A program made the position numbers and the translations under genes. Shown here one piece after another: positions 10,851 to 34,372 of a stretch of 64,000 nucleotides of DNA. Origin of the DNA: Candidatus Nezhaarchaeota archaeon (GTDB lineage Archaea > Thermoproteota > Methanomethylicia > Nezhaarchaeales > WYZ-LMO8); contig JASFYF010000001.1 in the NCBI GenBank assembly GCA_030055465.1, positions 351,179-415,178 on the forward strand. The letters run 5' to 3'. The notes under the pieces are model-generated. The model saw only the letters and a list, made by a program, of their open reading frames with translations, ran no database searches and had not been told where the DNA came from. Every line of letters starts with the position of its first letter. Position 1 is the stretch's first letter.

Positions 10851-11622
10851 GATGATCGAACCCCGATATTATGAGCTTTCCATCGGTTTTCGCGATGGAG
10901 ACCCTCCTGTTAAACGCATCGCTCAATAGCTGTTCGCTCAAAACTTCCCAGACCTTTCCAAAGGCCACGACTCTCCTGTTAAGCAACATAACGTAGTTGG
11001 ACAGCTCTACAACCGGGTTCAAATCGTGGACGACCATTATCAACAATACGCCCTCATCTGCCTTAGCTTTTAAAGCCCTTAAGATTACTTCCTGGGTTAC
11101 AGCATCAACTCCTGAGAGGGGTTCATCGAGTAGAAGCAGCTGAGGGTTTACTGCTAGAGCTCTAGCAATCAATACTCGTTGCTGCTGGCCACCAGACAAG
11201 TGCGCGTAGGGCTCGTCCCAGAAGTCCTCCATTTGAACCGCTTTTAATGCATCCATAGCTGCCCTGTAGTCTGCCTCAAGCAATGGATGACCCCATCCCC
11301 TTAAGGCTATCCTCCCCATGAGGACTACATCTTTAACTAGGACAGGCTTCGATGGATCCACCCTTTCCCTTTGAGGGACGTAGCCTACGTGTTTTCTAAG
11401 TTTATACCTCTCAGTTGGCACCTTGTAACCTAGAACCTCCACGTAACCCGCAATGGGCTTGATTATGCCTAGCAATGCCTTGAGAAGTGTTGTTTTACCC
11501 GACCCGTTAGGTCCAACAACCGAGAGGAATCCAGGCTCCAGCATTTTGAAGCTCACATCTTCTAACGCTAACTTGTCCCCGTAGGCTACTGAGAGATCCT
11601 CCACGATTATTGTCGGCCTCAT
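10843..11622 (-). CDS. Metal ABC transporter ATP-binding protein (ZnuC-like)
   Basis: Walker A GPNGSGKTT, signature LSGGQQQR, Walker B LLLLDEPLSGVD. Confidence 0.92.
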   Translation of the reverse strand: MRPTIIVEDLSVAYGDKLALEDVSFKMLEPGFLSVVGPNGSGKTTLLKALLGIIKPIAGYVEVLGYKVPTERYKLRKHVGYVPQRERVDPSKPVLVKDVVLMGRIALRGWGHPLLEADYRAAMDALKAVQMEDFWDEPYAHLSGGQQQRVLIARALAVNPQLLLLDEPLSGVDAVTQEVILRALKAKADEGVLLIMVVHDLNPVVELSNYVMLLNRRVVAFGKVWEVLSEQLLSDAFNRRVSIAKTDGKLIISGFDHHA

Positions 11623-12626
11623 CTGCGTCTCAACCTCACTATAATTATCCCTTCAATAACCGTTGCTGAAAGAAGGGCTACCAACAGGTATCGGCAGATT
11701 TCTTCGCTTGAGCTCGCCAAGCTCATCTTCCTCTCACCTATAAGGTGAGACAAGATTATCATTGTGTTGTACTTTATATACTCCGAGTAGCTGTCGACCA
11801 TTGAAGGAGGTACCCCATATACATACGCCATGGGTATCCCCGAAGCATCGGAGACCTGCTTAGCGTAGGATGCCTCGTACCCTTTGCTTTGGGTTGCCGA
11901 GACTATCATTATGTCCGAGGTGCGCGCCGCCATTATGGCATCCTTGATCCTCTGGGGGCCGGGAAGGCTTTCATGACCCACCATTATCACGTAAGATACG
12001 TTAAGACCCATCCATTCAACAAGTGGTTCAAAGTGATCCCCCGCTAGGAGGATGTTCTTGCGTTGCAGAGTCCTAGTTGTCTCGTGAAGCCAAGCTTCCA
12101 TGTTTTCTATAACATCGCAGAAAGCTTCGCATCGACTTCTATAGTATATGGCGTTGCTTGGATCTAGGTTAGACATCGCTTCCGCCACGAGCCATGCCAC
12201 ATTTTTAGCGTTAGGGGGGTATAACCATAGGTAATGTGGATTGTCGTTCCTAACGTAGATGCCACAACCAATCCAAGAGTCCCACCCCAGCACTAATCCA
12301 TGCTCTGGACTTGGAAGTTGACCTAGGAATTCCTCTTTGCCAGAGCAAACGAATAGGTCGCATGAAATAACCTTTAACGCATCAGATGGGGTTGGAGCGT
12401 AAGAATGGGGATCTACGCCAGCCGGTGCCAGGACATGTATCCTCGCACGTGAGCCAGCAACTTCCCTGACAATCATGTAGAGAGGACTTATTGTCACAAC
12501 AACGTCAAGCCCGTCATTGGACGATGCCTCAACATTGACTGGCGGGATTCCTGCTGAAGCCACCACGATTAGGAGTAAAATAGCGAGAACTAAGAGCTTC
12601 CTCATCTTCTGGGCCTCCAAACCCAA
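11619..12626 (-). CDS. Metal ABC transporter substrate-binding protein (ZnuA-like), N- and C-terminal hydrophobic segments
   Basis: Signal/TM at N-terminus; VVTISPLYMIVREVAG, DPHSYAPTPSDALKV, NPHYLWLYPPNAKNVA, LLAGDHFEPLVEW; C-terminal TM plus RLRRR. Start may be the internal Met at 12605. Confidence 0.85.
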   Translation of the reverse strand: MGLEAQKMRKLLVLAILLLIVVASAGIPPVNVEASSNDGLDVVVTISPLYMIVREVAGSRARIHVLAPAGVDPHSYAPTPSDALKVISCDLFVCSGKEEFLGQLPSPEHGLVLGWDSWIGCGIYVRNDNPHYLWLYPPNAKNVAWLVAEAMSNLDPSNAIYYRSRCEAFCDVIENMEAWLHETTRTLQRKNILLAGDHFEPLVEWMGLNVSYVIMVGHESLPGPQRIKDAIMAARTSDIMIVSATQSKGYEASYAKQVSDASGIPMAYVYGVPPSMVDSYSEYIKYNTMIILSHLIGERKMSLASSSEEICRYLLVALLSATVIEGIIIVRLRRR

Positions 12627-12710: not shown

Positions 12711-13121
12711 ATGGTGTTAAGCTTGACAATAGTTACGTTTTCGCTCCCCCAAGACCTTGAAAAAAACCTGAACGACATCGTGAAATGCATGGGCTTCCTC
12801 AACAGATCCGAGGCAATCAGGCATGCCCTTAGATTGCTGGCCTCAGAGCTCATGGTCCTTGAAAGCCTTAAAGGCAAGGTTTTAGCGATAATAGCCGTGG
12901 TTTACAGAAGGGACTCGCAGAAAACCAAGGTCCATAGAATTCAACACGAACATGGCGACATCATAAACGCCTATTTCCACGCTCATATAGATAACAAGAA
13001 GTGCCTCGAAATAATGGTCGTCCACGGTGATGCCGAGAGGTTAAGGGGGCTTGTTAACGGGCTTAGAGGCTCAAGGGGGCTTGAGCAGATGAAAGTTGCA
13101 GTTTTAAACCGTGTAGAATAG
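12711..13121 (+). CDS. nikR: NikR-like nickel-responsive RHH transcriptional regulator
   Basis: RHH N-terminus SLTIVTFSLPQDLEKNLNDIVKCMGFLNRSEAIRHALR; C-terminal HRIQHEHGDIINAYFHAHIDNKKCLEIMVVHGD matches the NikR Ni-site pattern (H..., HxH, C). Confidence 0.85.
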   Translation: MVLSLTIVTFSLPQDLEKNLNDIVKCMGFLNRSEAIRHALRLLASELMVLESLKGKVLAIIAVVYRRDSQKTKVHRIQHEHGDIINAYFHAHIDNKKCLEIMVVHGDAERLRGLVNGLRGSRGLEQMKVAVLNRVE

Positions 13122-18568: not shown

Positions 18569-20129
18569 GCTTCAACTTGTAGTACTCACTGTGATCTTCG
18601 CCTTAGCCATTACTCTTCTGCTTTGTGCCCCTGCAGCTGCCGAGAAGAACTTTAGCTTCAAGTTTCACGTTGATAAGGACGGGTTTACGAGGGTGGCCAT
18701 TTTCTTCTACGATGATGAGAGCGGCGGATCGTGGCTCCTCATCCCTAAGGATCAGATGAATTGCGTAAGGTTGATTGTCTACGAAGGCAACGTAACCGAC
18801 GTCTACTACAATAGCTTATTCGAAGGCGAAGAAGAGGATCCCTTTTATGTCGTGATGAATTTCACATACGTGGCTCATGGCTCAGCTAATTTTTCCGTTG
18901 AGTATGTGATGAGGAATGGGGGGCTCATAATAGAGCCGAAGGCCATCTTTGTTTCGCCTAGGATCATGCATGAGGATGCTGGATATACCAAGACGTTAAC
19001 CTTTCTACCTGCATATGCGACAATCAATGAGAAGAAAGTGGCGGCCATCTCCGGAACAATTAAAGACGTTAAAGTACTTCGACAGGTGGACCACGTTGTT
19101 GTGGAGGCCTCAGTGAGCTCAAGCGATAGGTTAGTGGTTGAGTACGAGGTGCCTTCCCCATGTAACGTGACCACTGTCGCCTCGGAGAACGTCGTGTTTG
19201 AGGTGCCTTACAGGTACTTGGACTTTGCGTATGATGTGCTCAATGCGCTCAACGAAGGATATAGACTGTACGCAAACGTGTTCGGCACAGGGTTAGAGAA
19301 CGTAAAGGTTCGGTTCTTCGTTCCCTCAATAAACGACATCCTGAGCGGACTGCAAGGCTATGTGCCCTTTGAGGCTGGCAAGCTAGGCGCCATACATCTA
19401 AACCTGTTGTACATAAGGGGCATTGAAGGGTTCGCGAGCCTCATAGCATTACACGAATTGGCACATCATTTCCTATGGCACATAGGCGTGCCACAGTCAA
19501 AGCTGTGGATCCACGAAGGTGCTTCCGAATACCTTAGCTTATACGTTGGGAGAAGGCTCGGCTACGCTAAGGCTGCTGCTCTCCGCGAAAACACACTGAC
19601 TCAAGCACTTGGAGGGCTTGAAAGCTTGGAGTTCATCCAGCAGTGGACTCCCTTTAATACTCCGCCTCAAGGATTGCAAAGGTGCTATGCCGCCTCCTAC
19701 TACGTGTTTAAGACGCTCTGCGAGAAATATGGGGAAACGCGTTACCTTGAATCGCTTTTCACAGCCTTTAAAAGCGTAGATTGGAGCAACAACACCCAAG
19801 TGATTGAGGCTTTCGGAGTTGCCGCCGGCAACACCTCAGAAGTCATCTCCATGTTCAATAAATGGGGCTTCAGGGATGGGGCCTTAAAAGTTCCCTCGAT
19901 ATTGTATGTAGAGAGGGCCTTGGATGCTATGCCTTTCTGGCTTGAGCCCTACAGGGGGGCTGCCCGACTCCTAGTATTAGCAGCGAAGGTCTTGCTACAG
20001 CACGGAGTTGTTCGCGGCTCAACTCTTATGGTTGGGGCCGCCCATTTTATATGCTTTTTAAGCCCTTATATGTTCTTGATAAGCTTGGCGTCGGCTATCG
20101 CAGGCATTCTCCTCTTTAGGCGGCTCTGA
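18540..20129 (+). CDS. Membrane-anchored gluzincin-type (MA clan-like) peptidase
   Basis: TTG start; N-terminal hydrophobic signal; ALHELAHHFLWHIG...LWIHEGASEYLS (HExxH plus downstream E); C-terminal TM. Overlaps the upstream gene by 29 nt. Confidence 0.7.
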   Translation: MRVKSILRDKLQLVVLTVIFALAITLLLCAPAAAEKNFSFKFHVDKDGFTRVAIFFYDDESGGSWLLIPKDQMNCVRLIVYEGNVTDVYYNSLFEGEEEDPFYVVMNFTYVAHGSANFSVEYVMRNGGLIIEPKAIFVSPRIMHEDAGYTKTLTFLPAYATINEKKVAAISGTIKDVKVLRQVDHVVVEASVSSSDRLVVEYEVPSPCNVTTVASENVVFEVPYRYLDFAYDVLNALNEGYRLYANVFGTGLENVKVRFFVPSINDILSGLQGYVPFEAGKLGAIHLNLLYIRGIEGFASLIALHELAHHFLWHIGVPQSKLWIHEGASEYLSLYVGRRLGYAKAAALRENTLTQALGGLESLEFIQQWTPFNTPPQGLQRCYAASYYVFKTLCEKYGETRYLESLFTAFKSVDWSNNTQVIEAFGVAAGNTSEVISMFNKWGFRDGALKVPSILYVERALDAMPFWLEPYRGAARLLVLAAKVLLQHGVVRGSTLMVGAAHFICFLSPYMFLISLASAIAGILLFRRL

Positions 20130-20438
20130 CCCCTGAGACTTCAGCTTCTCTTCAAGGCTCTTTACCTTATCATACATGGTTCTCTCAACATCTCTCCTGT
20201 CGTCTATCAGGAGCACTGTGTACACCCTCTTGGCGCCGGCTCGGAACAACGATTCATGGCATTTTTCGATAACTTCAAATAAATCCTTTAAGCTTCCAGC
20301 TTCGATTACCGTGCCCATTGGCGTTATCGTGAAATTGAGGCGCGACGACCTGATGATCTTTACAGCCTCAGCTACGTAGCCGCTGAGACTTGTCGATGAG
20401 GTTCCCAAGGGGGAAGTTGAGACTTGAGCTATAACCAT
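20058..20438 (-). CDS. MTH1187/UPF0045-family thiamine-binding-like protein
   Basis: MVIAQVSTSPLGTSSTSLSGYVAEAVKIIRSSRLNFTITPMGTVIEAGSLKDLFEVIEKCHESLF; start trimmed from the track ORF (20603) to the internal ATG at 20438. Confidence 0.8.
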   Translation of the reverse strand: MVIAQVSTSPLGTSSTSLSGYVAEAVKIIRSSRLNFTITPMGTVIEAGSLKDLFEVIEKCHESLFRAGAKRVYTVLLIDDRRDVERTMYDKVKSLEEKLKSQGSEPPKEENACDSRRQAYQEHIRA

Positions 20439-20495
20439 GCTTTCACCTCCACGTAAGCGATATAACCCCGCTCTGTAATATAGTTGTCTTGAACG

Positions 20496-21737
20496 ATGAT
20501 GATCCAAACAAATAACATAAGGTATATAAAGCTTGAAGATGCTTACGATATCATCAATAAGTTCTTGGAACCCAAGGGAGTTATAGATGTTGTGCCTCTC
20601 CAAGACGCTTATGATCGCCTCTTAGCTGAAGATGTGGTCTCAAAGCTTAGTTTACCGCTTTCGGACGTAGCCCACTTTGACGGCTACGCCATCAGAAGCA
20701 TCGACGTTGCATCAGCTTCGCCTAAAACCCCTGTTAAGTTGAAGATAAGGGGGAGGGCTTACCCTTCGACTAGTAATCGAGGAACCTTAAGCCCAGGTGA
20801 GGCGATCTACGTTTCAACGGGTTCTTTAATGCCCCTAAATGCTGATTGCGTTTTACCCGTAGAGGCCTCCATAGTTAAGGGCGATGAGCTAGAAGTCAAA
20901 TATGCCGTTAAACCCTTCGAACACGTTGTCAAGGCCGGTAGCGACGTAAAGTCCGGGGAAGAAGTGCTGAGAAGAGGGCATAGGCTTCGAGGACAGGACC
21001 TGACGCTGCTCGCCTTCATGGGTTACGGAAACCTGAAAGTGCTCTCGAAACCAAGGGTGGCGGTGATACCTGTAGGCGACGAACTGACCGATAATTTTGG
21101 AGAGGTCAAACCCGGTAAAACTCCTTGCGGACATGCCTTGATGATAAGCAGTTTTGTGTTGAGAGACGGCGGGATACCGATTCGTTTTAGGGTTGTCCCA
21201 GATAACGTTAATATGATAGCAAAAAACCTCGTTGAGGCTGCCCGTACGTGTGATATCATCATAACGATAAGCGGCGTCTCGAAGGGTGAGAGGGACTTTG
21301 TTCCGCGGGCACTCAAAGATATATGCAAAGGCGAGATACTATTTCACGGTATAATGATAAGGCCCGGAAGGCAGACAGGCCTAGGTCTCGTTGAGGGAAA
21401 GCCAGTGGTCATGCTACCTGGGCTCGTTCACTCAACCATTACTGGATACCACCTCGTAGCTAAAAGGGCCATGTATAGACTCATGGGTTTAGAGGCAGGG
21501 GAGAGGCCTTTAAAAGCTGTTCTCGCCTCCGACCTCGATTTGCCGCAGCCCAGGGGCTTTAAGCGCCTTGTCTTCATGAGGTTGGAGGATGATGGAAGCC
21601 GCCACCTCGCTTGGCCTTTAAAGGGGGAATCAGCTCTCCTCAGCATTCCGGTCAGAGCCCACGGCTATTCCGTCTTCAATGAGGGGTTTGAACGCATAGA
21701 TGAGGGAACCGTTATTAACGTGTACCCCATCCTGTGA
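20496..21737 (+). CDS. moeA: Molybdopterin molybdotransferase MoeA (copy 1)
   Basis: HFDGYAIRS, STGSLMPLNADCVLPVEAS, VIPVGDELTDN, SGVSKGERDFVP, C-terminal domain. Confidence 0.9.
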   Translation: MMIQTNNIRYIKLEDAYDIINKFLEPKGVIDVVPLQDAYDRLLAEDVVSKLSLPLSDVAHFDGYAIRSIDVASASPKTPVKLKIRGRAYPSTSNRGTLSPGEAIYVSTGSLMPLNADCVLPVEASIVKGDELEVKYAVKPFEHVVKAGSDVKSGEEVLRRGHRLRGQDLTLLAFMGYGNLKVLSKPRVAVIPVGDELTDNFGEVKPGKTPCGHALMISSFVLRDGGIPIRFRVVPDNVNMIAKNLVEAARTCDIIITISGVSKGERDFVPRALKDICKGEILFHGIMIRPGRQTGLGLVEGKPVVMLPGLVHSTITGYHLVAKRAMYRLMGLEAGERPLKAVLASDLDLPQPRGFKRLVFMRLEDDGSRHLAWPLKGESALLSIPVRAHGYSVFNEGFERIDEGTVINVYPIL

Positions 21738-22525
21738 GTCGATATCGCATTAGAGCTTGGGGGGAGAAGGCGTTGAAAATAGCCATTTCGGGCAAGGGAG
21801 GTTGCGGAAAGAGCACTTTAACGGTGCTCCTCTCCAAAGCATTCTCCAAAATGGGATTTAACGTTACCGTAGTCGACGTCGATGAATCCAATGTAGGCCT
21901 TAGCAAGATGCTGGGCCTTGAGGAAGGCGGAAAGTCGCTAATGGAGCTGTTGGGTGGTAGAGAAGAATTCAGGAGAGCCCTAAACAAGGGCTTACCGGAT
22001 ATACCGAGCCTAAACCACGCAGCAACTACGCGAGACCGCGTAAGGCTAGTTAAGGTTGGTAAGATAGAGAGGGGAGGGGAAGGGTGTGCATGCCTTATGG
22101 GGATCTTGGCTAAGGAGGTCCTCAGCAACGTGAGGGATGAAGGGGATTTAATCATAGTGGACATGGATGCGGGAATAGAGCATTTAGGCAGAGGTGTGGA
22201 CAAGGCGGTGGACGTTTTGCTGTTCGTGGTAGACCCGACTTATGATTCAGTGGTCCTGGCCGAGAGGGCCAGTAAAATGGCGGCCGAACTAGGAATTAAA
22301 AGATTCGCCGCGGTGCTAAACAAGGTAGACGATGAGGCCGCCAACATATTGTCCAGTAAGCTTTCAGCTTTGGGTGTTAGGATCATAGGGGTCATACGAC
22401 AAGACCCTAAAATCGCGCGCTCAGCGTTGACAGGTGAAGCTATAGATTCGGGCGCCGCGATGAGTGATGCCATGGCTTTGGCCAGTGCCCTGCTGGAGGA
22501 GGTTAAAGATGGGAGTGGTGGGTGA
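21734..22525 (+). CDS. CooC/MinD-like P-loop ATPase
   Basis: KIAISGKGGCGKSTLTVLL deviant Walker A; CxC in GEGCACLMG; IIVDMDAGIEHLGRG; overlaps moeA stop. Confidence 0.82.
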   Translation: MSRYRIRAWGEKALKIAISGKGGCGKSTLTVLLSKAFSKMGFNVTVVDVDESNVGLSKMLGLEEGGKSLMELLGGREEFRRALNKGLPDIPSLNHAATTRDRVRLVKVGKIERGGEGCACLMGILAKEVLSNVRDEGDLIIVDMDAGIEHLGRGVDKAVDVLLFVVDPTYDSVVLAERASKMAAELGIKRFAAVLNKVDDEAANILSSKLSALGVRIIGVIRQDPKIARSALTGEAIDSGAAMSDAMALASALLEEVKDGSGG

Positions 22526-23291
22526 GCTTGTAAAAGCCTTAACTAGCTTGCATCCCCATATCGAGAAAATAAAGGTAGAAAATGTTATCATAGGGCTCAG
22601 CTACACATGCGTTCAGGTCTCCACGGGCCATGTGGGCTTATGCCATACCCTTCTCGGAGAGCTAAACATTTCTTGCTGCAAGATAGCTGAAAAAGCAGGC
22701 TCAATGGCAGGCTCCCGCGTTGCGGACCTTTTGGAGATGGCAAACTCCTGGGATCTAGGCGAGAGGGTTGTCGGTATGGCCACCATAAATGCGCTTTCAG
22801 CTCAACACATCGAAGGAGGAGGGGGCCTGAGGGTTACGAAGGGAAACATATTGGAGAGGCTTGAGGTGAAGAAAGATGACGTGGTAGTCATGGCTGGGAA
22901 CATGAGGCCTCTAAAGCAGGCCCTTAAAGCAAGAGGCTGTAGGCTCCTAGTCTTTGATAGAAATCCCCTCTTCAGAGATGAAGAGACCCTACCCGACACG
23001 CTAGTTGATGAAGCTATGGAAAAGGCTGATGTTGTCCTAGCCTCGGGCACAAGCTTGGCCAACGGCACCATTGACCGAGTTTTAAGGGCCTCCAGAAATG
23101 CAAGGTGTGTAGCCCTCATAGGGCCCTCGGCCGGAGCCTACCCCCAAGTGCTCCTGGGGATGGGTGCAACTATGATAGGCTGCATAAGGGTCCTTAACCC
23201 ATCAATGGTTATGAGGGTTGTCAGCGAAGGCGGCGGGACAAAGGCTTTGAAGCCCTACGTGGAGCAAGTGACAATAGAAAAGGCTAGCTAA
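22509..23291 (+). CDS. DUF364/DUF4213-like putative heavy-metal chelation protein
   Basis: MGVVGELVKALTSLHPHIEKIKVENVIIGLSYTCVQVS..., later VVMAGNMRPLKQALKARGCRLLVFDRNP; start trimmed to ATG 22509. Confidence 0.7.
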   Translation: MGVVGELVKALTSLHPHIEKIKVENVIIGLSYTCVQVSTGHVGLCHTLLGELNISCCKIAEKAGSMAGSRVADLLEMANSWDLGERVVGMATINALSAQHIEGGGGLRVTKGNILERLEVKKDDVVVMAGNMRPLKQALKARGCRLLVFDRNPLFRDEETLPDTLVDEAMEKADVVLASGTSLANGTIDRVLRASRNARCVALIGPSAGAYPQVLLGMGATMIGCIRVLNPSMVMRVVSEGGGTKALKPYVEQVTIEKAS

Positions 23292-23313: not shown

Positions 23314-24699
23314 ATGGAGACGGGGTTCGTGAAGGAAGGAGGCATAATATCGCTCCTTAGAGCAATAGGTTTGACAGAGTATGAAAGCAAGGTGTACGTG
23401 GCCCTCATAAACTTGGGAGAGGCGAGAGCAAAGGAGGTAAGCGACGTCACCTCCATAGCTTATCCAAAGATATACAGCGTTTTAGCAGAGCTAAAGAAGA
23501 AGGGGTTTGTTGAGGAGAGGCTTGAAAGGCCTAGGAGCTTCACGGCCATTGATCCGGTTAGAGCTGTCTGGAACTTCATTGAAGAGAGGATAGCGGAGCT
23601 GAGGGGAGCTGGCGAGCAGGCGGTTAAAATGTTATCCGCTGTTTATGGTGCTTCGAGCTTGAAGGAGGGTAAAAGCTTCATAGTTGAAGGTAGAAGAAGC
23701 GTCCTCGCAAAGTTGAGGGAGCTGCTTTCCCAAGCGAAGATTGAGATATTGATCTCCGCACCAGACTTAGAGGCTATTGGAGTTAAGGCTTTGTTGCTCG
23801 ACCTGAACGCTGCGAGGAAAAGCGGTGTTAACGTCAGGGTTTTGACCTCTACGAAGAGCAAGCACATAGAGGACATAATGGAGGTATCTGAGGTCAGGGT
23901 GAAAGACGGTTTAGAAAGCTATTACGCGATAACAGATGTCGGGTCACTGCTGATCTCCGGTAAGCCTGATAGACCAAAGGGAATATTCATAGCTGATGAG
24001 ATGGGCGCAAAGCCAACACGGGAGCACTTCAACTACATCTGGCTTGAGGCCGTTCCCGCCTCATTGCATTTGGGCACCGCCCAGAGTAAGAGGGGGATCA
24101 TCATACTGGCGGGAGGCATGAGTAAACGAATGGGCAGAGACAAGACGTTCCTGACAGTCAAGGGGGTTCCGATGATAAAAAGGGTCGCCAACTCAGCATT
24201 AAGCGTTTCCCATGAAGTCATTATAGTTGTGGGTGGGAAGAGGGTGCTCAAGAAGTTGAGCAATGTCGTAGGTGGAGAAGTAACGATAGCTGAGGACGAG
24301 GAGAAGGGGTGGGGCCCGTTAATGGGAATACTGTCGGGCTGTAGAAAGTCGCGCGCCGAATACGTTGCGGTAATACCTTGTGATGCACCGTTCATTAATC
24401 CCAGGGTGTTGATGGAGCTCTTTAAGAGGGCTGAAGGGCATGACGCTGCCATCCCTCGCTGGCCCAATGGGTACATAGAGCCGCTCCACTCTGTGTACCG
24501 CAGGGAGGTGATAATAGGGGTGGCCGACGAGCTGCTTAAGAAGGGGTCGCGATCCATGATTCACATGGTGAACATGCTGAAGGACGTTGTTTTCGTCCCG
24601 GTAGAGGAGCTCAAGCTGATAGACTATAACCTCTTAACGTTCTTCAACGTCAATACCCCGAGGGATCTTCTTATAGCTGAAACAATGGAGAGTCCATGA
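23314..24699 (+). CDS. mobA: TrmB-like transcriptional regulator fused to MobA-like molybdenum cofactor guanylyltransferase
   Basis: N-terminal LTEYESKVYVALINLGEARAKEVSDVTSIAYPKIYSVLAELKKKGFVEE (TrmB wHTH); C-terminal RGIIILAGGMSKRMGRDKTFLTVKGVPMIKRV...VAVIPCDAPFINPRV (MobA). Confidence 0.88.
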   Translation: METGFVKEGGIISLLRAIGLTEYESKVYVALINLGEARAKEVSDVTSIAYPKIYSVLAELKKKGFVEERLERPRSFTAIDPVRAVWNFIEERIAELRGAGEQAVKMLSAVYGASSLKEGKSFIVEGRRSVLAKLRELLSQAKIEILISAPDLEAIGVKALLLDLNAARKSGVNVRVLTSTKSKHIEDIMEVSEVRVKDGLESYYAITDVGSLLISGKPDRPKGIFIADEMGAKPTREHFNYIWLEAVPASLHLGTAQSKRGIIILAGGMSKRMGRDKTFLTVKGVPMIKRVANSALSVSHEVIIVVGGKRVLKKLSNVVGGEVTIAEDEEKGWGPLMGILSGCRKSRAEYVAVIPCDAPFINPRVLMELFKRAEGHDAAIPRWPNGYIEPLHSVYRREVIIGVADELLKKGSRSMIHMVNMLKDVVFVPVEELKLIDYNLLTFFNVNTPRDLLIAETMESP

Positions 24700-25237
24700 A
24701 CATTTTTATAATCTTTAATAGCTCTGCCTCATCCCTAGGAAGGAACACGCAGGGAATCCCACGGTAGGTAGGTTCCATGTTCTGAACCATGAATGTGCAA
24801 GCCGCCAGAAGCGGTGGCTTTGTCCCATGAAGCCTTTCTTCTAGGTCTTTAATATCTTTGAAGGCTACAATTTTAGCTACGTCCGCCCTTTCAGCTACAA
24901 GCCTGTGGAAACCCTCAATTAATATTACGTCGACGTTGCCCGCGTCGACTATCCGCAGAGCCTCTTCAAGGGTTTTCGGTTCTCCATTCAGCTTTACGAG
25001 CTTACCGGCTTCACGAGGCGATATGTAGCCCACCACTCTGGCTCCAGCTTTAACGAATCGGCTTGTATCTGTTCCCTCCCTGTCAATTGTGAAGTTCTCA
25101 TGATGGATGTGCTTAAGCGAAGCTACAACAAACCCGACGCCCGTTAAGTACTTCGTCACAAGTTCAGCTACTGTAGTCTTACCGGACTTTTTGCTTCCAA
25201 TTATCGCAATCTTCTTCGTACAAATCACGCTCAACAT
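24671..25237 (-). CDS. mobB: Molybdopterin-guanine dinucleotide biosynthesis protein MobB
   Basis: KIAIIGSKKSGKTTVAELVTKYLTGVGFVVASLKHIHHENFTIDREGTDTSRFVKAGA. Confidence 0.9.
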   Translation of the reverse strand: MLSVICTKKIAIIGSKKSGKTTVAELVTKYLTGVGFVVASLKHIHHENFTIDREGTDTSRFVKAGARVVGYISPREAGKLVKLNGEPKTLEEALRIVDAGNVDVILIEGFHRLVAERADVAKIVAFKDIKDLEERLHGTKPPLLAACTFMVQNMEPTYRGIPCVFLPRDEAELLKIIKMFMDSPLFQL

Positions 25238-25416: not shown

Positions 25417-26367
25417 TTGATATTCGATAAGTACGGTAGACCAATAACAAACCTAAGAATAACCATTACTCATAAGTGCAATTACAGGTGTTTCTACTGC
25501 CACCGAGAGGGAGAAGACTGTTCCGATGCCCTAACCGTGGAAGATGTTGTTAGGCTTGTAAAAGTGGGCAAGAAGCTCGGAATGGATAAAGTCAAGCTGA
25601 CTGGAGGCGAACCGCTCACCCGAAGCGACCTTATTGATATGATAGAAGCCATAAACGAGATAGGTCTTTCTGAAGTTGCCATGACCACTAATGGATCGCT
25701 ACTCAAAGGTATTGCTCATCATCTAGCTAAAGCCGGTCTGAGTAGAGTAAACGTCAGCCTACCCTCTCTAAGGGAAGGGGTGTTTGAAAGAATAACAGGG
25801 GTCCAGGTTCTAGGGAAGGTAATGGAAGGATTATTAGAGGCAAAGGCCTGTGGATTAGAACCAATAAAGCTTAACGTCGTGGTGCTGAGGGGTTTAAACG
25901 ACGACGAGTTGTGGAACATAGTTGATTTTGCTAGGAAACACGAATTTATAGTTCAGCTAATAGAGCTCGAGCCCATAAACATCAATGACGAGTTTTACAG
26001 GATACACCACGTGAGCCTAGAGGAAGTAGAGCTGTGGCTCCAGCAAAGAGCTGTAAGAATTGAAGAAAGAAAGCTGATGCATAACAGGCGGCAATACGAT
26101 CTCGGCGATGTGAAGGTTGAAGTTGTAAGGCCAGTCAACAACCCAGAGTTCTGCATGCACTGTACTAGGCTTAGAGTGACGGCCGACGGGAAGCTGAAGC
26201 CTTGCATCATGAGGAACGATAACTTAGTCGACGTGCTGAGGGCCTTAAGGATCGGGCTGGATGACTCCGAGCTTATCAAAATATTTATGAAGGCGGTTGA
26301 GTTGAGGGAACCCTACTTCAAGGGTGCCTGCAATGCACAGGCGCACGGAAAAGCTAAGGTTTGTTAG
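25417..26367 (+). CDS. moaA: GTP 3',8-cyclase MoaA
   Basis: Radical SAM THKCNYRCFYCHREG, KLTGGEPLTR, C-terminal CMHCTRLRVTADGKLKPC; TTG start. Confidence 0.9.
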   Translation: MIFDKYGRPITNLRITITHKCNYRCFYCHREGEDCSDALTVEDVVRLVKVGKKLGMDKVKLTGGEPLTRSDLIDMIEAINEIGLSEVAMTTNGSLLKGIAHHLAKAGLSRVNVSLPSLREGVFERITGVQVLGKVMEGLLEAKACGLEPIKLNVVVLRGLNDDELWNIVDFARKHEFIVQLIELEPININDEFYRIHHVSLEEVELWLQQRAVRIEERKLMHNRRQYDLGDVKVEVVRPVNNPEFCMHCTRLRVTADGKLKPCIMRNDNLVDVLRALRIGLDDSELIKIFMKAVELREPYFKGACNAQAHGKAKVC

Positions 26368-26375
26368 TTGAAGCT

Positions 26376-27119
26376 TTATGGCTTAGCCCCAATTATAACG
26401 GCGTACCCTATTCTTCCCAGTAATGGCCTTATCTGTTCCGGATCTGCCGATCCCCAATCATATGCGTCCGATGCATCCTTCCAGTAAAGCACCTTCATCC
26501 CCGATCTCTCTAAGAGATTTATGTAGCCTTCTATGGTTTCCGCCCCAGCTACGCACAGGCACCAATTGGCAATGCTTTCAGCATTCTTTAGCGTTGGATC
26601 CTTCAACGTGACGTCTGTTATCAACGCCTTGCCGCCAACCTTGAGCACTTCAACCATTTTATTCAATGCCCTAAGCTTATTAGGAAAGAGGGAGAGGGAG
26701 CACTCACATATCACGGCATCGAAGAGGCCTTCCCTCAGAGGGAGGAATTCCGAGTCTGCGCGTATAAGCTCAGCGAGGTTTTCATGGCTTCTTCCCGAAA
26801 GCTTAGCCCTTGCCTTTTTAAGGATCCTAGCTGATAGGTCAATGCCATAGGCATGGCACTTGAAGCGCCTAGTTAATAGATGTAGCGTTGCGCCCGCTCC
26901 ACACGCAACATCAAGCACGCTCCAACCTGGTTGGAGGTTAACGAGCTTTAACGAGTCTTCTGTGAGCCTTAAACCTCCAGGCCTCATAGCTTCTTGAGTC
27001 GTGGAGTCGGATAAGGCGGCCTCGTAAAACATTGAACTCATCTTTTTGATCACGCAATCCACCGATTGTTCTGCGACTTCACGGCCGCAGCAACCTTCAT
27101 TCAAGGATGTTCCCCTCAC
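26376..27119 (-). CDS. Class I SAM-dependent methyltransferase
   Basis: WSVLDVACGAGATLHLL and FDAVICECSLSLFPNKLRALNKMVEVLKVGGKALITDV. Confidence 0.82.
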   Translation of the reverse strand: MRGTSLNEGCCGREVAEQSVDCVIKKMSSMFYEAALSDSTTQEAMRPGGLRLTEDSLKLVNLQPGWSVLDVACGAGATLHLLTRRFKCHAYGIDLSARILKKARAKLSGRSHENLAELIRADSEFLPLREGLFDAVICECSLSLFPNKLRALNKMVEVLKVGGKALITDVTLKDPTLKNAESIANWCLCVAGAETIEGYINLLERSGMKVLYWKDASDAYDWGSADPEQIRPLLGRIGYAVIIGAKP

Positions 27120-27175
27120 AAGGTTTATCTCTTATGCTTACTTAAAGAAGTGCTGAGGATTTAAGGTGATCGCTA

Positions 27176-28447
27176 TTGCCCCAGGGGAGGGTTAGGGAAG
27201 ACTGGAAAAGGGTTTTGAGGCTTACCTCGCCGCAGGAGGCTGCTGAGAGGTTGCTCGAGTACTTGAAGGTCAAGCCAAGGATTGAGGAAGTCAGCGTAGC
27301 TGATTGCCTTGGTAGGGTGCTAGCTGAGGATGTGGTTTCCTCGCAAGACATACCGCCATATAATTGTGCATGTTTTGAGGGTTATGCAATCAACTCTGAT
27401 GACACGGCGAAGGCCACGAGGGATAACCCAGCCGACCTGAGAGTGGTGGGCAGGGTCCTCCCGGAAACCAAGAACATACCAACCGTTAGAAGAGGGGAAG
27501 CAGTATTCCTCGTGACTGGCGCTCCAATCCCTCAGGGCGCCGACTGCCTAGTCAAGGTGGAGGAGGCAAGGCTTGAAGGCGACCGCATCCTTGTCTTCAG
27601 GAGCTTCTCGAAGTTTGAAAATGTTGCTTTAAAGGGTGAAGACGTGAGGTCTGGGGAGACGCTGCTGAAAGCGGGACGCGTGATTAGGCCCATCGACGTG
27701 GGGTTATTAATGGGTCTAGGGTTTTCAAAGGTGAAGGTATACGCGAAACCCCGTATAGCCATAATATCCGTAGGAAGGGAGCTCTACCTTAAAAGCTTAG
27801 AGTGCAGGGATCCACCACCCAACAATTATGCTTACGTGGTTAAGGGCTTGGTCGAGTGCTTTGGCGGGTCAGCTGATGTGCTGGGCGTGTTTCCAGATGA
27901 TGTCGAGTTGGTTAAAGGGGTGCTCTTACGAGCTTTAGAGGCTTATGACGCTGTTTTCACCATGGGCAGCTGTAGCATCGGGATCAACGACGCGGTGCCC
28001 GATGCGGTGAACGAGCTTGGCAAACCGGGGGTCCTAGTTCACGGCTTAGCATTGAATCCGGGGAAGCCAGCCGGCTTCGGCATAGTGTGGGGAAAGCCCG
28101 TCATAATGCTTCCGGGACACATAGTCTCAGCCGTGGCGGCGTTCTACGTTTTATGCCTTCCCTTGATAGGGGCCATGACTGGTAGAAATGCTGAAGAGCT
28201 TTCACCACATGTGTACGCGGAAATGGAAGACCACGAAGAAACGGGGGGCGCCTGCAGGTTTCTAAGGGCCAACGTGAAGGATATAAATGGAAGGTTTGTG
28301 GCTAAACCCATGCATGGTGGGGCCAACGTAATGGTGACTCTTCTGAGGTCGAACTACTTCGCCGTGCTGCCGCCAAAAACCGAAGTTAAGAAGGGCGAAA
28401 TGCTAAAGATGAAGGCTTTAACGCTCCTGGACGCTTTGCCTCGGTAA
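27176..28447 (+). CDS. moeA: Molybdopterin molybdotransferase MoeA (copy 2, divergent motifs)
   Basis: NCACFEGYAINS, TGAPIPQGADCLVKVEEA, SVGRELYLKS, MGSCSIGINDAVPD, MLPGHIVSAVAAFY. Confidence 0.88.
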   Translation: MPQGRVREDWKRVLRLTSPQEAAERLLEYLKVKPRIEEVSVADCLGRVLAEDVVSSQDIPPYNCACFEGYAINSDDTAKATRDNPADLRVVGRVLPETKNIPTVRRGEAVFLVTGAPIPQGADCLVKVEEARLEGDRILVFRSFSKFENVALKGEDVRSGETLLKAGRVIRPIDVGLLMGLGFSKVKVYAKPRIAIISVGRELYLKSLECRDPPPNNYAYVVKGLVECFGGSADVLGVFPDDVELVKGVLLRALEAYDAVFTMGSCSIGINDAVPDAVNELGKPGVLVHGLALNPGKPAGFGIVWGKPVIMLPGHIVSAVAAFYVLCLPLIGAMTGRNAEELSPHVYAEMEDHEETGGACRFLRANVKDINGRFVAKPMHGGANVMVTLLRSNYFAVLPPKTEVKKGEMLKMKALTLLDALPR

Positions 28448-28482
28448 GGCTGGAATCGATGATATTCTAAGAGAAAGGCTTA

Positions 28483-28498
28483 TCTTCTATATAGAAGA
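28483..28498. promoter_or_regulatory. Perfect 16-bp palindrome overlapping a TATA-like core upstream of the ferredoxin-Tfr operon
   Basis: TCTTCTATATAGAAGA, self-complementary, 24 bp upstream of ATG at 28522. Confidence 0.5.
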
Positions 28499-28521
28499 GC
28501 CTCTCTGAGGTTGATAAGCTT

Positions 28522-29046
28522 ATGCCAGAATACGGCATTATGGCGGACTTAGATAGATGCGTTGGCTGCAGGGCTTGCGAGCTTGCATGTAGGAACGAGA
28601 ACCAGCTGCCCGAGACGATGAGCTTCATAAGGAACATTAGAATAGGCCCAGAAATCATGAATGGCAAGATAGCCATGTACTTCGTATCGCTGCCCTGTAT
28701 GCATTGCGGTCGAGCACCCTGCTCTGAGGTTTGCCCAGCTCGTGCAATCAAGAAGCGGCCCGATGGAATAGTGCTGCTGGATGAAACTAAATGTATAGGC
28801 TGCAAGTACTGCATGTGGGTATGCCCCTTTGGGGCGCCGCAGTTCAACGCTCAACTTGGTAGGATGCAGAAATGTCGGCTATGCGTCCAAAGGGTTGAGA
28901 AGGGGCTTGATCCGGCCTGCGTGAAGGGCTGCCACGTAAAGGCGCTTAAGTTCGGCACCTTAGACCAGTTGTCCGAGCTTGCTAAGACAAAAGCTGCTAG
29001 GAAAGCGGCAATGTTCAAGATACCGGGAATTATGACGCCGGCCTGA
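28522..29046 (+). CDS. 4Fe-4S ferredoxin-type electron transfer subunit (DmsB/HycB-like)
   Basis: Four Cys clusters: CVGCRACELAC, CMHCGRAPCSEVCP, CIGCKYCMWVCP, CRLCVQRVEKGLDPACVKGC. Confidence 0.88.
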   Translation: MPEYGIMADLDRCVGCRACELACRNENQLPETMSFIRNIRIGPEIMNGKIAMYFVSLPCMHCGRAPCSEVCPARAIKKRPDGIVLLDETKCIGCKYCMWVCPFGAPQFNAQLGRMQKCRLCVQRVEKGLDPACVKGCHVKALKFGTLDQLSELAKTKAARKAAMFKIPGIMTPA

Positions 29047-29066
29047 AATGGAGGTTCCAAATAGAA

Positions 29067-30662
29067 ATGGAAGGAGAACAAAGGCTAATGGTAAAGGTGT
29101 ATAGGTGCAACCCCGAGGTCGGCGAGAAGCCTCACTATAGGAGCTATGAGGTTCCATGGCATGAAGGAATGACGGTGCTGGAAGTTCTCAGGTCCATATA
29201 CGAAAATCATGAGCCAATAGCTTTCCGGTATCACTGTAGATCCGGCGTCTGCGGCGCTTGCGGTGTTATGGTTAATGGGAGGCCTGTTCTAGCCTGCAGG
29301 ACCTACGTGGAAGGCCCAGGAGAGCTCGTGATTGAGCCGTTGAAGAACTTCAATGTGATAAAGGACCTAGTGGTTGATAGAAGGCCAATGCTGGAACAGA
29401 CCATCAAGTTGGAGCCTTGGCTCCTCAGAGGGCACAAGGCTGCAGTCGATTTTGAGAAGGTGGAGTGGTCTCTCGAAAGTAAGGATAAGTTCTACCTCCT
29501 TGCGTCGTGTAGGGAGTGCTACCTTTGCAGGGCGGCATGCCCCGCCGCTGAGGTGGGCTTCAGGAAGCCGGAGGTAACCAAGTATCCTGGAGCGAAATTC
29601 TACGTTAGAGATCTAGCCACTAGGCTTCTCGACCCAAGAGACGAGGGCAAACATACAAGGGCTGTAAAGCTAAAGGAGGATATAGACGCGTACGCCTGCA
29701 CCACATGCAAGAAGTGCTGGGAGGTTTGCCCAAGAGAGTTCGAGGTGCCGGAGGTTATGGAGGAGCTTAGAAGTCACATCGCCAATGTAGGTTTAGGACC
29801 CTTGGAAGGACATATGGTCTTCGCTGATTTCATTAAGAAGACGGGCAGGGCTGTTGACAGGCAGGCTACACCCCTCGTAGAGCAGGTGCCCGAGCTAATA
29901 GATGTCGCGAACCCGATTGACGAGGTGCTTTTCTTCACAGGCTGCCTAATTGATTTCAGGCTTCAAAGGGTAGGCCTTGGAATAATAGATGTGCTCAAGA
30001 GAAACAACGTTAGGGTAATAGTGCCTAAAGATCAACAATGCTGTGGATCACCGGCTATAAGATCTGGGCTCTTTGGCGTCGGCAAAGCCCAAGCAATGAA
30101 GAACGTTGAAGTTTTCGAGCGTTACGGCGTAAGCAAAGTAGTTATGGGCTGTCCAGGATGCCTCCTTACGTGGAAGACCAACTACCCCAAGTTCATTTAT
30201 GAAGAAAGAAAGAACCTGCCGAGACTAGAAGTCTACGAGATAACGGAGTACCTCGTCAAAATATTGGGCTTAGATAAAATAAACAAGAACTTCAGCAGCG
30301 TAGACATGCGCGTAACATATCACGACTCATGTCACTTGAGGAGAGGCTGCGGAATATGGAAAGAGCCGCGAGAACTAATTAGCATTATTCCTGGGCTAAA
30401 ATTCAGGGAAATGAACGAACATGATGTATGCTGCGGCTCGGGTGGAGGAGTGAGGGCTGGGAGAAGGGCCGTCTCGGTGGAGATAGGTAAAAGAAAAGTG
30501 GATAACATAGTGGCTGCCGAAGTGGATGGTGTCATAATGGAGTGTCCTTTCTGTTACATACAGATACGTGATGTGCTCCAGCAGTTCCACGGTGGCAAAG
30601 TCAAGGTCCTCTACCTGATTGAACTCATCGCCGATGCTTACAAAGGAGCTGAGGGCAATTGA
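29067..30662 (+). CDS. TfrB-like protein: SdhB/FrdB iron-sulfur domain fused to HdrB-like CCG domains
   Basis: [2Fe-2S] CRSGVCGACGVMVNGRPVLAC; CRECYLCRAACP and CTTCKKCWEVCP; CCG motifs CCGSPAIRSG...GCPGC and CCGSGGGVRAG. Confidence 0.85.
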   Translation: MEGEQRLMVKVYRCNPEVGEKPHYRSYEVPWHEGMTVLEVLRSIYENHEPIAFRYHCRSGVCGACGVMVNGRPVLACRTYVEGPGELVIEPLKNFNVIKDLVVDRRPMLEQTIKLEPWLLRGHKAAVDFEKVEWSLESKDKFYLLASCRECYLCRAACPAAEVGFRKPEVTKYPGAKFYVRDLATRLLDPRDEGKHTRAVKLKEDIDAYACTTCKKCWEVCPREFEVPEVMEELRSHIANVGLGPLEGHMVFADFIKKTGRAVDRQATPLVEQVPELIDVANPIDEVLFFTGCLIDFRLQRVGLGIIDVLKRNNVRVIVPKDQQCCGSPAIRSGLFGVGKAQAMKNVEVFERYGVSKVVMGCPGCLLTWKTNYPKFIYEERKNLPRLEVYEITEYLVKILGLDKINKNFSSVDMRVTYHDSCHLRRGCGIWKEPRELISIIPGLKFREMNEHDVCCGSGGGVRAGRRAVSVEIGKRKVDNIVAAEVDGVIMECPFCYIQIRDVLQQFHGGKVKVLYLIELIADAYKGAEGN

Positions 30663-32134
30663 TCGAGGTAAAGAGAATAAGCACTGATGTGCTGGTGATA
30701 GGCGGCGGTGCAGCCGGTATGAGGGCTGCTATTGCCGCCAGCGATATGGGGGCCCAAGTCGTCTTAATTGACAAGGGCCTCTTTGGCAGGAGCGGAATGT
30801 CTGGTACTCTCCCTTACTGGAACGTTCCCGCCCCGCCGTTCCCCGAGGATAGGGATGGATACTTCGAAGATCTGATGAATGGTTCCCATGGCTTGGCAGA
30901 TCCAAAGCTGATCAAGATTTTAGTCTCAGAGGGAAAAGACAGGGTTCTCGAGCTGGAAGAGTACGGGAACATATTCATCAGGGACTCTGCAGGCGAAGTA
31001 TCGCCAGCCCATGCTGATAGTCACTCTAAAGCTAGGATTTTCACTCCTGCATACTCGTGGATCATGTCCATGCAAGTGCTAAAGCGAGGGATTGTAGTTT
31101 ACGATGAGACCTTCGCTACAAGACTCATCAAGTCCAACGATAGGGTCTCAGGTGCAGTTGCCTTCAACCTTAAGGAGGGCAGTATCCTAGCGGTTGAAGC
31201 TAAGGCTACAGTTCTCGCCACTGGCGGTGCGGGGCACCTATTCGGCATGGACACGAGGCTTTGGCAATCAACAAATCCCATCGAGCTTACGGGCGACGGC
31301 TACGCCCTAGCATATGATGTAGGCGCTGAGCTCATCGACATGGAGTTTAACCAAATAGCACTTGAACCACAGTACTCCGCTTCTAGAGGGCAGACTTATT
31401 CAAGCACGGCTTTAGCGTTAGCTAGGACTTTAAGGTCGGCTACGACGTTTCAGGAGACGCCCTCCGTTCACCACTTCTTAGGGGGGGTTCTAATAGACGA
31501 GAACGGTAGAACAACCGTGCCCAGCCTCTACGCATGCGGGGAGGTTTCTGGGGGTTTACACTTGAAAGCCACGGACCAGTTTATTGGTTGCCTAGTTTTC
31601 GGTAGACGTGCTGGGGAAGCCGCTGCAATCGAAAAGGCAGGCGAGGGGATGCCAGAAAAGGAGGTTAAGAAGGAGGTTAACCGCGTCATCTCAATATTGA
31701 ACAACGCGCCGAATGATGGTGTACCACCGCACGTTCTAAGGAAGAGGTTAACTAGAAGCCTCTGGGAGGAAGTGGGCTTAAGAAAAGACGAGAACAGCTT
31801 AACCAACGCTTTAAGGATCCTAGAGGACACAAAGATTCTGCTTCCAAAAATGATTGTGAGAGATAAGAGCAAGTTGTTTAACAAGGAGTGGGTAGAGGCC
31901 CTAGAAACCTACAACATGGTTATCGTGGCGGAGATGATAGTGAGGTCTTCTCTTCTCCGAAGGGAGAGTCGAGGAGTATTCACTAGGGCGGATTATCCGA
32001 GAAGTGACGAGAGGTACCTTGGGCACTTTCACATTAAAAAGGTCGGAGGCCAAATGCATTTAGAGTTCAGGTCGCTTAGAGGTCCTCAGAGGGGTCTTGA
32101 AGTAGTTGTGGATCCCTCCGAGAAGGTAAAGTAA
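30659..32134 (+). CDS. FAD-dependent fumarate reductase/succinate dehydrogenase flavoprotein-like subunit (TfrA-like)
   Basis: LVIGGGAAGMRAAIAASDMGAQVVLIDKG; VHHFLGGVLIDENGRTTVPSLYACGEVSGG; overlaps TfrB-like stop. Confidence 0.83.
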   Translation: MIEVKRISTDVLVIGGGAAGMRAAIAASDMGAQVVLIDKGLFGRSGMSGTLPYWNVPAPPFPEDRDGYFEDLMNGSHGLADPKLIKILVSEGKDRVLELEEYGNIFIRDSAGEVSPAHADSHSKARIFTPAYSWIMSMQVLKRGIVVYDETFATRLIKSNDRVSGAVAFNLKEGSILAVEAKATVLATGGAGHLFGMDTRLWQSTNPIELTGDGYALAYDVGAELIDMEFNQIALEPQYSASRGQTYSSTALALARTLRSATTFQETPSVHHFLGGVLIDENGRTTVPSLYACGEVSGGLHLKATDQFIGCLVFGRRAGEAAAIEKAGEGMPEKEVKKEVNRVISILNNAPNDGVPPHVLRKRLTRSLWEEVGLRKDENSLTNALRILEDTKILLPKMIVRDKSKLFNKEWVEALETYNMVIVAEMIVRSSLLRRESRGVFTRADYPRSDERYLGHFHIKKVGGQMHLEFRSLRGPQRGLEVVVDPSEKVK

Positions 32135-32170: not shown

Positions 32171-34372
32171 TCATTCTACCTTGTAGACTTTGCATAGTAG
32201 GCCTGTATAATAGTAGCATCCGAAGGTTTGATCTAGCACTTCAGGGTCATCTTCTGTCAAGAGATTAGCGTTGGATTCGAAAACTCCGAAAAGCGATGGC
32301 TCTGATCCAGGCTTCTCGGGGAACCACCAGCTTGCCTCAGCGCACACGACTTGTGGATGTAAGCTCACATTGTAGAACGCCTTTTGCTTTATCTTGCCCT
32401 TAGGCGTCTCTATCCATATCCAGTCACCATTTCTTATACCGAGGGAGCCCGCGGTGTCTGGATGTATGTGACATAATGGGTCTGGGTGCATCCTTCTGAG
32501 GACATCTATTTGCCTTTGTTCAGAATGATGGAAAGGCATGAACTTCACTCCCGTCACCAATATCAATGGATATTCTTTAGCCAGCTCGGGGTTGCTGTAC
32601 GGCGTCATGGGTGGCTCCCTGTACACGGGTAGGGGGTCGTAGCCCATCTGCTCTAGTATTGTAGAGTAGAGCTCTACCTTACCGGTAGGGGTCGCAAATT
32701 TATTGGTTATTTGAGGTGTAGTGGAGTGCATCCTTATGTACTGGACGAAGTCGGATAGCGATAGGCCAAGGCCAAGCGGCTCAAGCCTGTATTCGTAGGC
32801 CTCCTCCAAGGTCTTCCACGGCCAATATTCCTCTTGACCTAATCTTAATCCCAGCTCCCTCCAAAGCTCAAAGTCAGTTCTTCTCTCGTGAAGTGGCTGT
32901 ATGGGTCGCTCGGAAAGTATCATGAAGTTCGAGGTTCCGAATGAGCTTGTTGCAACGGGCCTCTCAAGCCAGCTCGCAGCGGGTAGAACGTAGTCAGAGA
33001 GCATTGCAGTAGGGGTCATCCACAAGTCCATTGTTACCAGCAGCTCCACCGATTTAAGTGCATCATATACTAGCTTCGAGTTTCCATATGCTACAAGGGG
33101 ATTTGATGCCACTACTAATATGGCCTTTATCGGGTAAGGCTTATTGGTTGCAGCGGCCCTCCATATGTAGGATGGATGGGCTTCGCAGCACCATTCAGCT
33201 GGTGGAGTCTTGCCCCAGAAGGCCTTCGCGTGCCTGCACACCACTTCGTAGCCTGGCCACGACATCATCTTAAACCTGTCTGAGCCCAGCTGCTTGGCCC
33301 TCTGCTCCACCGGTAGAACATCGTTTAGCTCCAAGTCCGAGTCTATGTATATTTCGGTGTCCGGCCCTAACACCAGGTTGCCCCCCGGTCTGTTCAGGTT
33401 CCCGGTTATGGCTTTCAGTATTGCTCTAGCCCTCAGAAGGCATGGAGATGCCCATCCCATATGCTCATTCTTGGAGCCCCAGAGCATGGTGGCGGGCTTT
33501 ATTGTAGCGTACATCCTAGCCGTCTCTATTATATCGTCCCTCGGTATCCACGTAACCTTTTCAGCCCATTCTGGGGTATATTGCTGTACGTGCTCCCTAA
33601 GCCTCTCAAAGCCATAGCAGTAGTTTTCAACGTAATCCTTATCGTAGAGCCCTTCATTTATTATCACGTTAATCCATGCAAGAGCCAAAGCTCCGTCTGT
33701 CGCCGGCCTTATTCTGAGCCATATATCAGCCTTCGAGGCCAGCTCGCTTAACCTTGGATCCACAACTATAAGCTTAGCGTTGTTATTTTCCTTGGCATCT
33801 AGTATGCTTCTCATCTCTGGGAGGTTGTTGGAGCCGGAGTTCCTACCCCAAGCGACTATCAGTTTGGTGTTGACGGTATCCGGCACAGCATACCAACCAT
33901 ACGTTGCAGCCTCCGACATGAATGTGGGCAGCCAACAAACGTGTGCGATGTGGCATATGTTCGGGCTTCCGAAAAGGTTGAAAAACCTCCTTCGAGCCCA
34001 GTCGTCTGTCCTGTTAGTTCCGCCAATTGACGCCACGCACTCTGCACCATACTTATCTTTAAGCTCCCTAAGCTTTGAGGCGATCTCATCAAGGGCTTCG
34101 CTCCAAGGCACTCGCTTGAACTTCCCCTCTCCCCTCTCACCAACCCTCTTGAGGGGGTAGTTGAGCCTTTTAGGATGGTACAAGAACTCCTTCCACGTGT
34201 GTGGTCTCGGACACATCCCCCCCTTGTTTATGGGGTGATCAGTATCTCCTTCAACCTTCACTATCTCGCCATTTTTAACGTAGATGAGCATGCCGCAGTT
34301 CTGATAGCAGAACCAGCAAGCCGCCCTTTTTACCTCAACGTTTTCTTCAAGTGCTACACCCATCCCCTTCAA
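32171..34372 (-). CDS. Molybdopterin oxidoreductase catalytic subunit (DMSO reductase superfamily)
   Basis: N-terminal CWFCYQNCGMLIYVKNGEIVKVEGDTDHPINKGGMCPRP cluster; long MopB core; C-terminal molydopterin-binding SLGIRNGDWIWIETPKGKIKQKA. Confidence 0.9.
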   Translation of the reverse strand: MKGMGVALEENVEVKRAACWFCYQNCGMLIYVKNGEIVKVEGDTDHPINKGGMCPRPHTWKEFLYHPKRLNYPLKRVGERGEGKFKRVPWSEALDEIASKLRELKDKYGAECVASIGGTNRTDDWARRRFFNLFGSPNICHIAHVCWLPTFMSEAATYGWYAVPDTVNTKLIVAWGRNSGSNNLPEMRSILDAKENNNAKLIVVDPRLSELASKADIWLRIRPATDGALALAWINVIINEGLYDKDYVENYCYGFERLREHVQQYTPEWAEKVTWIPRDDIIETARMYATIKPATMLWGSKNEHMGWASPCLLRARAILKAITGNLNRPGGNLVLGPDTEIYIDSDLELNDVLPVEQRAKQLGSDRFKMMSWPGYEVVCRHAKAFWGKTPPAEWCCEAHPSYIWRAAATNKPYPIKAILVVASNPLVAYGNSKLVYDALKSVELLVTMDLWMTPTAMLSDYVLPAASWLERPVATSSFGTSNFMILSERPIQPLHERRTDFELWRELGLRLGQEEYWPWKTLEEAYEYRLEPLGLGLSLSDFVQYIRMHSTTPQITNKFATPTGKVELYSTILEQMGYDPLPVYREPPMTPYSNPELAKEYPLILVTGVKFMPFHHSEQRQIDVLRRMHPDPLCHIHPDTAGSLGIRNGDWIWIETPKGKIKQKAFYNVSLHPQVVCAEASWWFPEKPGSEPSLFGVFESNANLLTEDDPEVLDQTFGCYYYTGLLCKVYKVE

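Follow-up and report, generated by a model that had tools for sequence, protein, structure and literature searches.

What does a protein do that carries a DNA-binding module of the TrmB family and a MobA guanylyltransferase in one chain? The question is raised by a gene at 23314..24699 on the forward strand of a 64,000-nucleotide stretch of DNA (the window) from a Candidatus Nezhaarchaeota archaeon. The gene has an ATG start, encodes 461 amino acids and contains no internal stop. An initial annotation, made from the sequence alone, had described a single uninterrupted reading frame with a TrmB-type winged helix-turn-helix (wHTH) followed by MobA, and this description is borne out by the reading frame and by a Pfam domain search (TrmB, NTP_transf_3). 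The best reading of the fusion, at about even odds, is that it has a role in controlling molybdenum supply. It would be a bifunctional enzyme-regulator in which occupancy of MobA alters DNA binding and which stands in for ModE, a proposal to which we give a probability of about one half.

The fusion is a TrmB winged helix, a coiled coil, a PLD-like half, a linker and a complete MobA in one chain. The winged-helix domain (residues 15-81, 23356..23556) matches TrmB (PF01978) with an E-value of 3e-20 and 72.2 bits against a gathering score of 25.6. When it is aligned to structure 3QPH, Y54 of the fusion is the counterpart of TrmB Y50, the tyrosine of the recognition helix that contacts DNA, and it is invariant in four fusions. 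A long helix or coiled coil is predicted for residues 82-115 (23557..23658), based on a low-confidence model helix at 81-110 and on the anatomy of the TrmB family, and is presumed to mediate dimerisation. Residues 120-245 (23671..24048) follow and form the PLD-like half of a TrmB effector domain. They are recognised by a match of residues 123-221 to Regulator_TrmB (PF11495, E 1e-6), which is partial and spans profile positions 4-107 of 233, and by an alignment to TrmBL2 that reaches residue 178. The full sugar-binding effector domain, including the residues corresponding to G320 and E326 of TrmB, is missing, the profile match stopping at 107 of 233. The effector-like domain that had been proposed within residues ~1-255 is thus present as its PLD-like half and lacks the C-terminal half with the sugar-binding residues. 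Several TrmB family members have no sugar-binding domain or residues, and the domain is not required of all of them (PMC4158304).

After a variable linker (residues 246-258, 24049..24087), the remainder of the protein is a complete MobA domain (residues 259-455, 24088..24678). That the C-terminal half is MobA, as first proposed, is confirmed by NTP_transf_3 (PF12804, residues 263-417, E 2e-34), by the nearest solved structures (MobA for residues 261-457; TrmBL2/TrmB for residues 17-178) and by the MobA motifs LAGGxSxRMGxDK (265-277), GPLxGILSG (334-342), PCDAPF (355-360) and FFNVNTP (443-449), whose positions are mostly invariant in an alignment of four genomes. The NCBIfam MobA models are the best models for the C-terminal part (residues 259-457), yet all score under their equivalog cut-offs; TIGR02665, for example, gives 90.3 bits against 151.85. 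No ModE or Mop match is among the Pfam and NCBIfam families listed for the protein. Structure prediction gave a mean pLDDT of 33 from a single sequence and 48.6 from three sequences; the wHTH and part of MobA are readable, and the wHTH reaches mostly 78-84 per block (residues 21-80) within the otherwise weak model.

A fused frame of this kind could be produced by an assembly error or a missed stop. Here, the fusion is uninterrupted in three relatives as well, G002 (65% identity), G004 (62%) and G005 (60%), and since four genomes share an unbroken frame an assembly artefact is excluded. Homologues split into two genes would have refuted the fusion according to the initial annotation; they proved to be fused, and no split TrmB beside mobA was found among the loci examined in relatives. 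Unfused TrmB relatives showed no link to molybdenum genes, their identified neighbours being QueT, KaiC, HypF and UPF0182 proteins. In a further relative, G003, both halves are present at two contig ends. The fusion occurs in three genera of one family: that of the window's genome and two more, to which the other fusion genomes belong. Among 398 genomes of the phylum there is no match outside the family that spans both halves, and MobA and TrmB are separate proteins elsewhere in that sample. Two scans of a collection of 84,980 species found only family members and two weak wHTH matches; these scans used short peptide patterns, which divergent fusions could escape. No description of a TrmB and MobA fusion in archaea was found in the literature searched, a body of work that many subscription journals lie outside. 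That a TrmB module and MobA are fused is certain.

It is worth asking whether the TrmB half still does anything, as it could be a relic of DNA binding, or a scaffold for dimerisation, attached to what is simply a MobA. The missing sugar-binding half would fit such a view. The comparison of the four fusions does not: 55% of positions are invariant in the wHTH, nearly as many as in MobA (58%), compared with 38% in the PLD-like half and 15% in the linker, and the recognition-helix residues SIAYPK and the tyrosine that follows them are invariant in four genomes. We regard a relic as very improbable.

The MobA half, in turn, would probably make molybdopterin guanine dinucleotide from Mo-molybdopterin and GTP, as its sequence leads one to expect. 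In the window's genome, no NTP_transf_3 protein besides the fusion was detected. G002, G003 and G004 have other MobA-like proteins; those inspected, the rest being short, weak matches, are of the MocA type (next to an XdhC-like gene) or the CobY type, which makes the fusion the probable sole MobA of these cells. Judged by this sequence comparison, its MobA should therefore still be active as an enzyme.

The fusion lies in a run of molybdenum cofactor (Moco) genes that is conserved in the family in the order moeA1, ATPase, (DUF364), fusion, mobB on the opposite strand, moaA, (methyltransferase) and moeA2, where the ATPase, DUF364 and methyltransferase genes are each absent from some family genomes. 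The mobB, moaA and two moeA genes that had been listed as flanking genes are all there, with the correction that mobB (24671..25237, reverse strand) is convergent with the fusion and overlaps its 3' end by 29 bp. On the forward strand, moeA1 (20496..21737), the first gene of the run, moaA (25417..26367) and moeA2 (27176..28447) were each assigned from Pfam, NCBIfam and locus comparison. A MinD/ParA-like ATPase gene (21734..22525, forward; Pfam and locus comparison), missing beside the fusion in G005, overlaps a gene for a DUF4213/DUF364 'heavy-metal chelation' protein (22464..23291, forward; Pfam), whose true start is probably near 22509 and which is missing from the G003, G004 and G005 loci. 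This pair might provide a metal-delivery step for molybdenum or tungsten. The methyltransferase gene (26376-27119, reverse) belongs to the DVU_1556 family (160.4 bits against a cut-off of 155); it is kept in G002 and absent at the G003 and G004 loci.

A Thiamine_BP-family gene (20061-20441, reverse) is divergent from moeA1 and conserved in the family. Downstream of the run, at 28522-32134 and 32171-34372, an Fe-S protein, an SdhB/HdrD-like protein (2Fe-2S, 4Fe-4S and CCG domains) and a flavoprotein adjoin a MopB-type Mo/W oxidoreductase, a set that is conserved in G002 and absent at the equivalent place in G003 and G004. Elsewhere in the window, a NikR-type regulator (NikR_C, 12711-13121) adjoins an ABC transporter operon (10005-12626).

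The fusion promoters of G002, G003 and G004 contain the palindrome TTAACT-N6-AGTTAA, with N7 spacing in G004 and one different arm base in G002 (G002 CTAACTTTTTAAAGTTAA, G003 TTAACTTTTTAAAGTTAA, G004 TTAACTTTTTTAGAGTTAA). It ends 15, 18 and 23 bp, respectively, ahead of the start codon of the fusion. The arms were defined from these promoters first, and whole genomes were searched afterwards. Besides the G003 fusion site, the search with N6 spacing gave a single exact match per genome in G002, G003 and G004, each ahead of a molybdate-transporter (mod) operon: TTAACTACGCTTAGTTAA in G002, between modBA and an ABC ATPase gene, and TTAACTTTCTATAGTTAA ahead of modA in both G003 and G004. The sites agree in their arms; at the centre, G002 differs from the other two genomes. 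The G004 modA and G002 modB genes exceed the NCBIfam cut-offs for molybdate transport; modA of G003 and the truncated modA of G002 are slightly under them. As the G002 mod intergenic region makes up 141 bp of ~1.5 Mb, the probability of one chance match there is ~1e-4, a figure into which other meaningful targets are not counted. When the spacing was varied from 4 to 9, the matches away from fusion promoters that were examined, all but two in G003 (C39 and C68), were intracoding with the exception of an N8 site in G002. Three exact matches are present in the 35 genomes of the class that have no fusion, none visibly adjoining molybdenum genes. Shuffled promoters contain a palindrome of comparable quality in 5-16% of cases, which leaves the match at the mod operons to carry the weight, and G003 and G004 are of one genus, which reduces the independent cases to two. 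Taken together, TTAACT-N6/7-AGTTAA is probably the operator of the fusion in at least three relatives. Its ACT/AGT half-site resembles that of Halobacterium TrmB, TACT-N7-8-GAGTA (PMC4158304).

Other candidates for regulatory DNA in the window were examined and rejected. The perfect 16-bp palindrome TCTTCTATATAGAAGA at 28483-28498, which precedes the Fe-S / fumarate-reductase-like operon, differs in its arms, is without a conserved counterpart in G002 and was left unassigned. Footprinting by alignment of the regions upstream of moeA1, moaA and moeA2 was defeated by the divergence of the sequences, and a Moco riboswitch was discarded as Rfam gave no match in the window save one tRNA. The initial annotation had named 20400-20500, 27120-27180 and 28450-28520 as regions for DNA-binding probes; none has the TTAACT-N6-AGTTAA palindrome. 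The regulatory role that it had proposed gains a link to molybdenum through the palindrome at the fusion and ModABC promoters of three relatives, and the candidate regulon is a different one from the 'local Mo/W-enzyme operon' that it had in mind. Going by the distribution of the sites, we infer a regulon made up of the fusion's own gene and molybdate uptake, which is supported in the relatives and not in the window's genome: the palindrome is absent from the window's fusion promoter and from the tupA promoter of the same genome, as well as from the fusion promoter of G005, where no transporter was found.

These absences bear on whether the fusion itself recognises the palindrome. Another transcription factor might bind it, leaving the fusion with a different DNA target or none. 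Such a factor could explain why, in two of the five genomes with the fusion, the promoter of the fusion is without the palindrome despite a nearly identical recognition helix, and further TrmB-like proteins are present in the window's genome. It would not account for the site in the fusion's own promoter, which is what autoregulation predicts; the ORF lists show no obvious regulator gene adjoining mod, and no ModE was found in the fusion genomes. We consider a separate factor improbable, and propose that the fusion binds the palindrome itself.

The position of the site may also indicate the sign of regulation. In G002, G003 and G004 the fusion promoter is near-leaderless and its likely TATA region lies under the palindrome; at the mod promoters the palindrome precedes a TATA-like box by ~20-30 bp. 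Characterised TrmB regulators repress from sites that overlap the promoter and activate from upstream sites (PMC4158304), and this rule, together with the placement of the palindrome, predicts autorepression of the fusion and activation of uptake through ModABC. In the proposed mechanism, the N-terminal TrmB module would dimerise and bind DNA, and the C-terminal domain would be the MobA of the cell, producing molybdopterin guanine dinucleotide. GTP, Mo/W-molybdopterin or the product in the MobA site would alter DNA binding, so that transport and cofactor synthesis track the demand for cofactor, and the fusion would take the place of ModE. That the cofactor state is sensed at the MobA site is a plausible hypothesis. 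One reading, ModE-independent archaeal control of Mo/W in which MobA itself is a transcription factor that binds its own and molybdate-transporter promoters according to whether substrate or product occupies it, is put forward tentatively, at somewhat short of even odds.

It is possible, if rather unlikely, that the two halves work side by side: a functional MobA and an independently acting TrmB regulator of molybdenum genes, fused for co-expression only, with the MobA site irrelevant to DNA binding and any effector bound by the PLD-like half. Loose coupling of the domains is suggested by the variable linker, over a third of the positions in the retained PLD-like half are invariant, and Moco enzymes are fused to one another elsewhere, as in the MobA-MobB and MobB-MoeA models of NCBIfam. 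Against this, MobA is on its own in the rest of the phylum sample, and a regulator of molybdenum genes that stays joined to a cofactor enzyme over three genera most simply means coupling.

The suggestion that the fusion replaces ModE can be compared with the distribution of ModE itself. Of the 40 genomes of the class, 18 have a ModE-like HTH, and the five with the fusion are not among them (Fisher p 0.05, uncorrected for kinship), an association that is weak taken alone. The only other family member, G001, has a full ModE (HTH and Mop) adjoining a molybdate/tungstate-type binding-protein gene; no fusion was detected in this genome, which is 72% complete. The window's genome has a TupABC-type tungstate transporter (L111:6589-8812; G000:C1 about 212600-214800) beside a MopB-like oxidoreductase gene, and no ModA relative of the G004 type was found in it. 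Its relatives have ModABC or the ModE-linked binding protein instead, and uptake systems therefore turn over within the family. Among archaea, Methanococcales for example lack ModE (PMC9765008).

The fusion can be compared with several known systems. It shares with the TrmB family (TrmB, TrmBL1, TrmBL2; PF01978 and PF11495) the N-terminal wHTH, the recognition-helix tyrosine, the predicted coiled coil and the PLD-like half, and its relatives share a palindromic candidate operator with a position-dependent layout; it differs in that an entire MobA replaces the C-terminal sugar-binding half, and that the candidate regulon is molybdate uptake, whereas that of TrmB is sugar metabolism. It resembles MobA (E. 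coli MobA 1FRW and structure 3NGW) in its complete domain, nucleotide-binding signature, catalytic Asp region and NVNTP, and differs in being covalently attached to a transcription-factor module. ModE represses molybdate uptake. The fusion would share with ModE (HTH and Mop/TOBE) a role in coupling molybdenum status to molybdate uptake and Moco genes, but it has no Mop domain, its wHTH is of another family and it is predicted to activate uptake. BirA and NadR are trigger enzymes that also act as regulators. Like them, the fusion has a cofactor enzyme and a DNA-binding domain in one polypeptide, and is proposed to act on its own pathway; unlike them, it involves other folds and cofactors, and enzymatic control of DNA binding is for the fusion only hypothetical.

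If the proposal is true, Moco joins the few cofactors that are sensed by their own biosynthetic enzyme, and the TrmB family, mainly known for the control of sugar metabolism, extends to a metal cofactor. For the question of how archaea without ModE control the uptake of molybdate and tungstate, the fusion offers a definite candidate that can be tested at specified operator sites.
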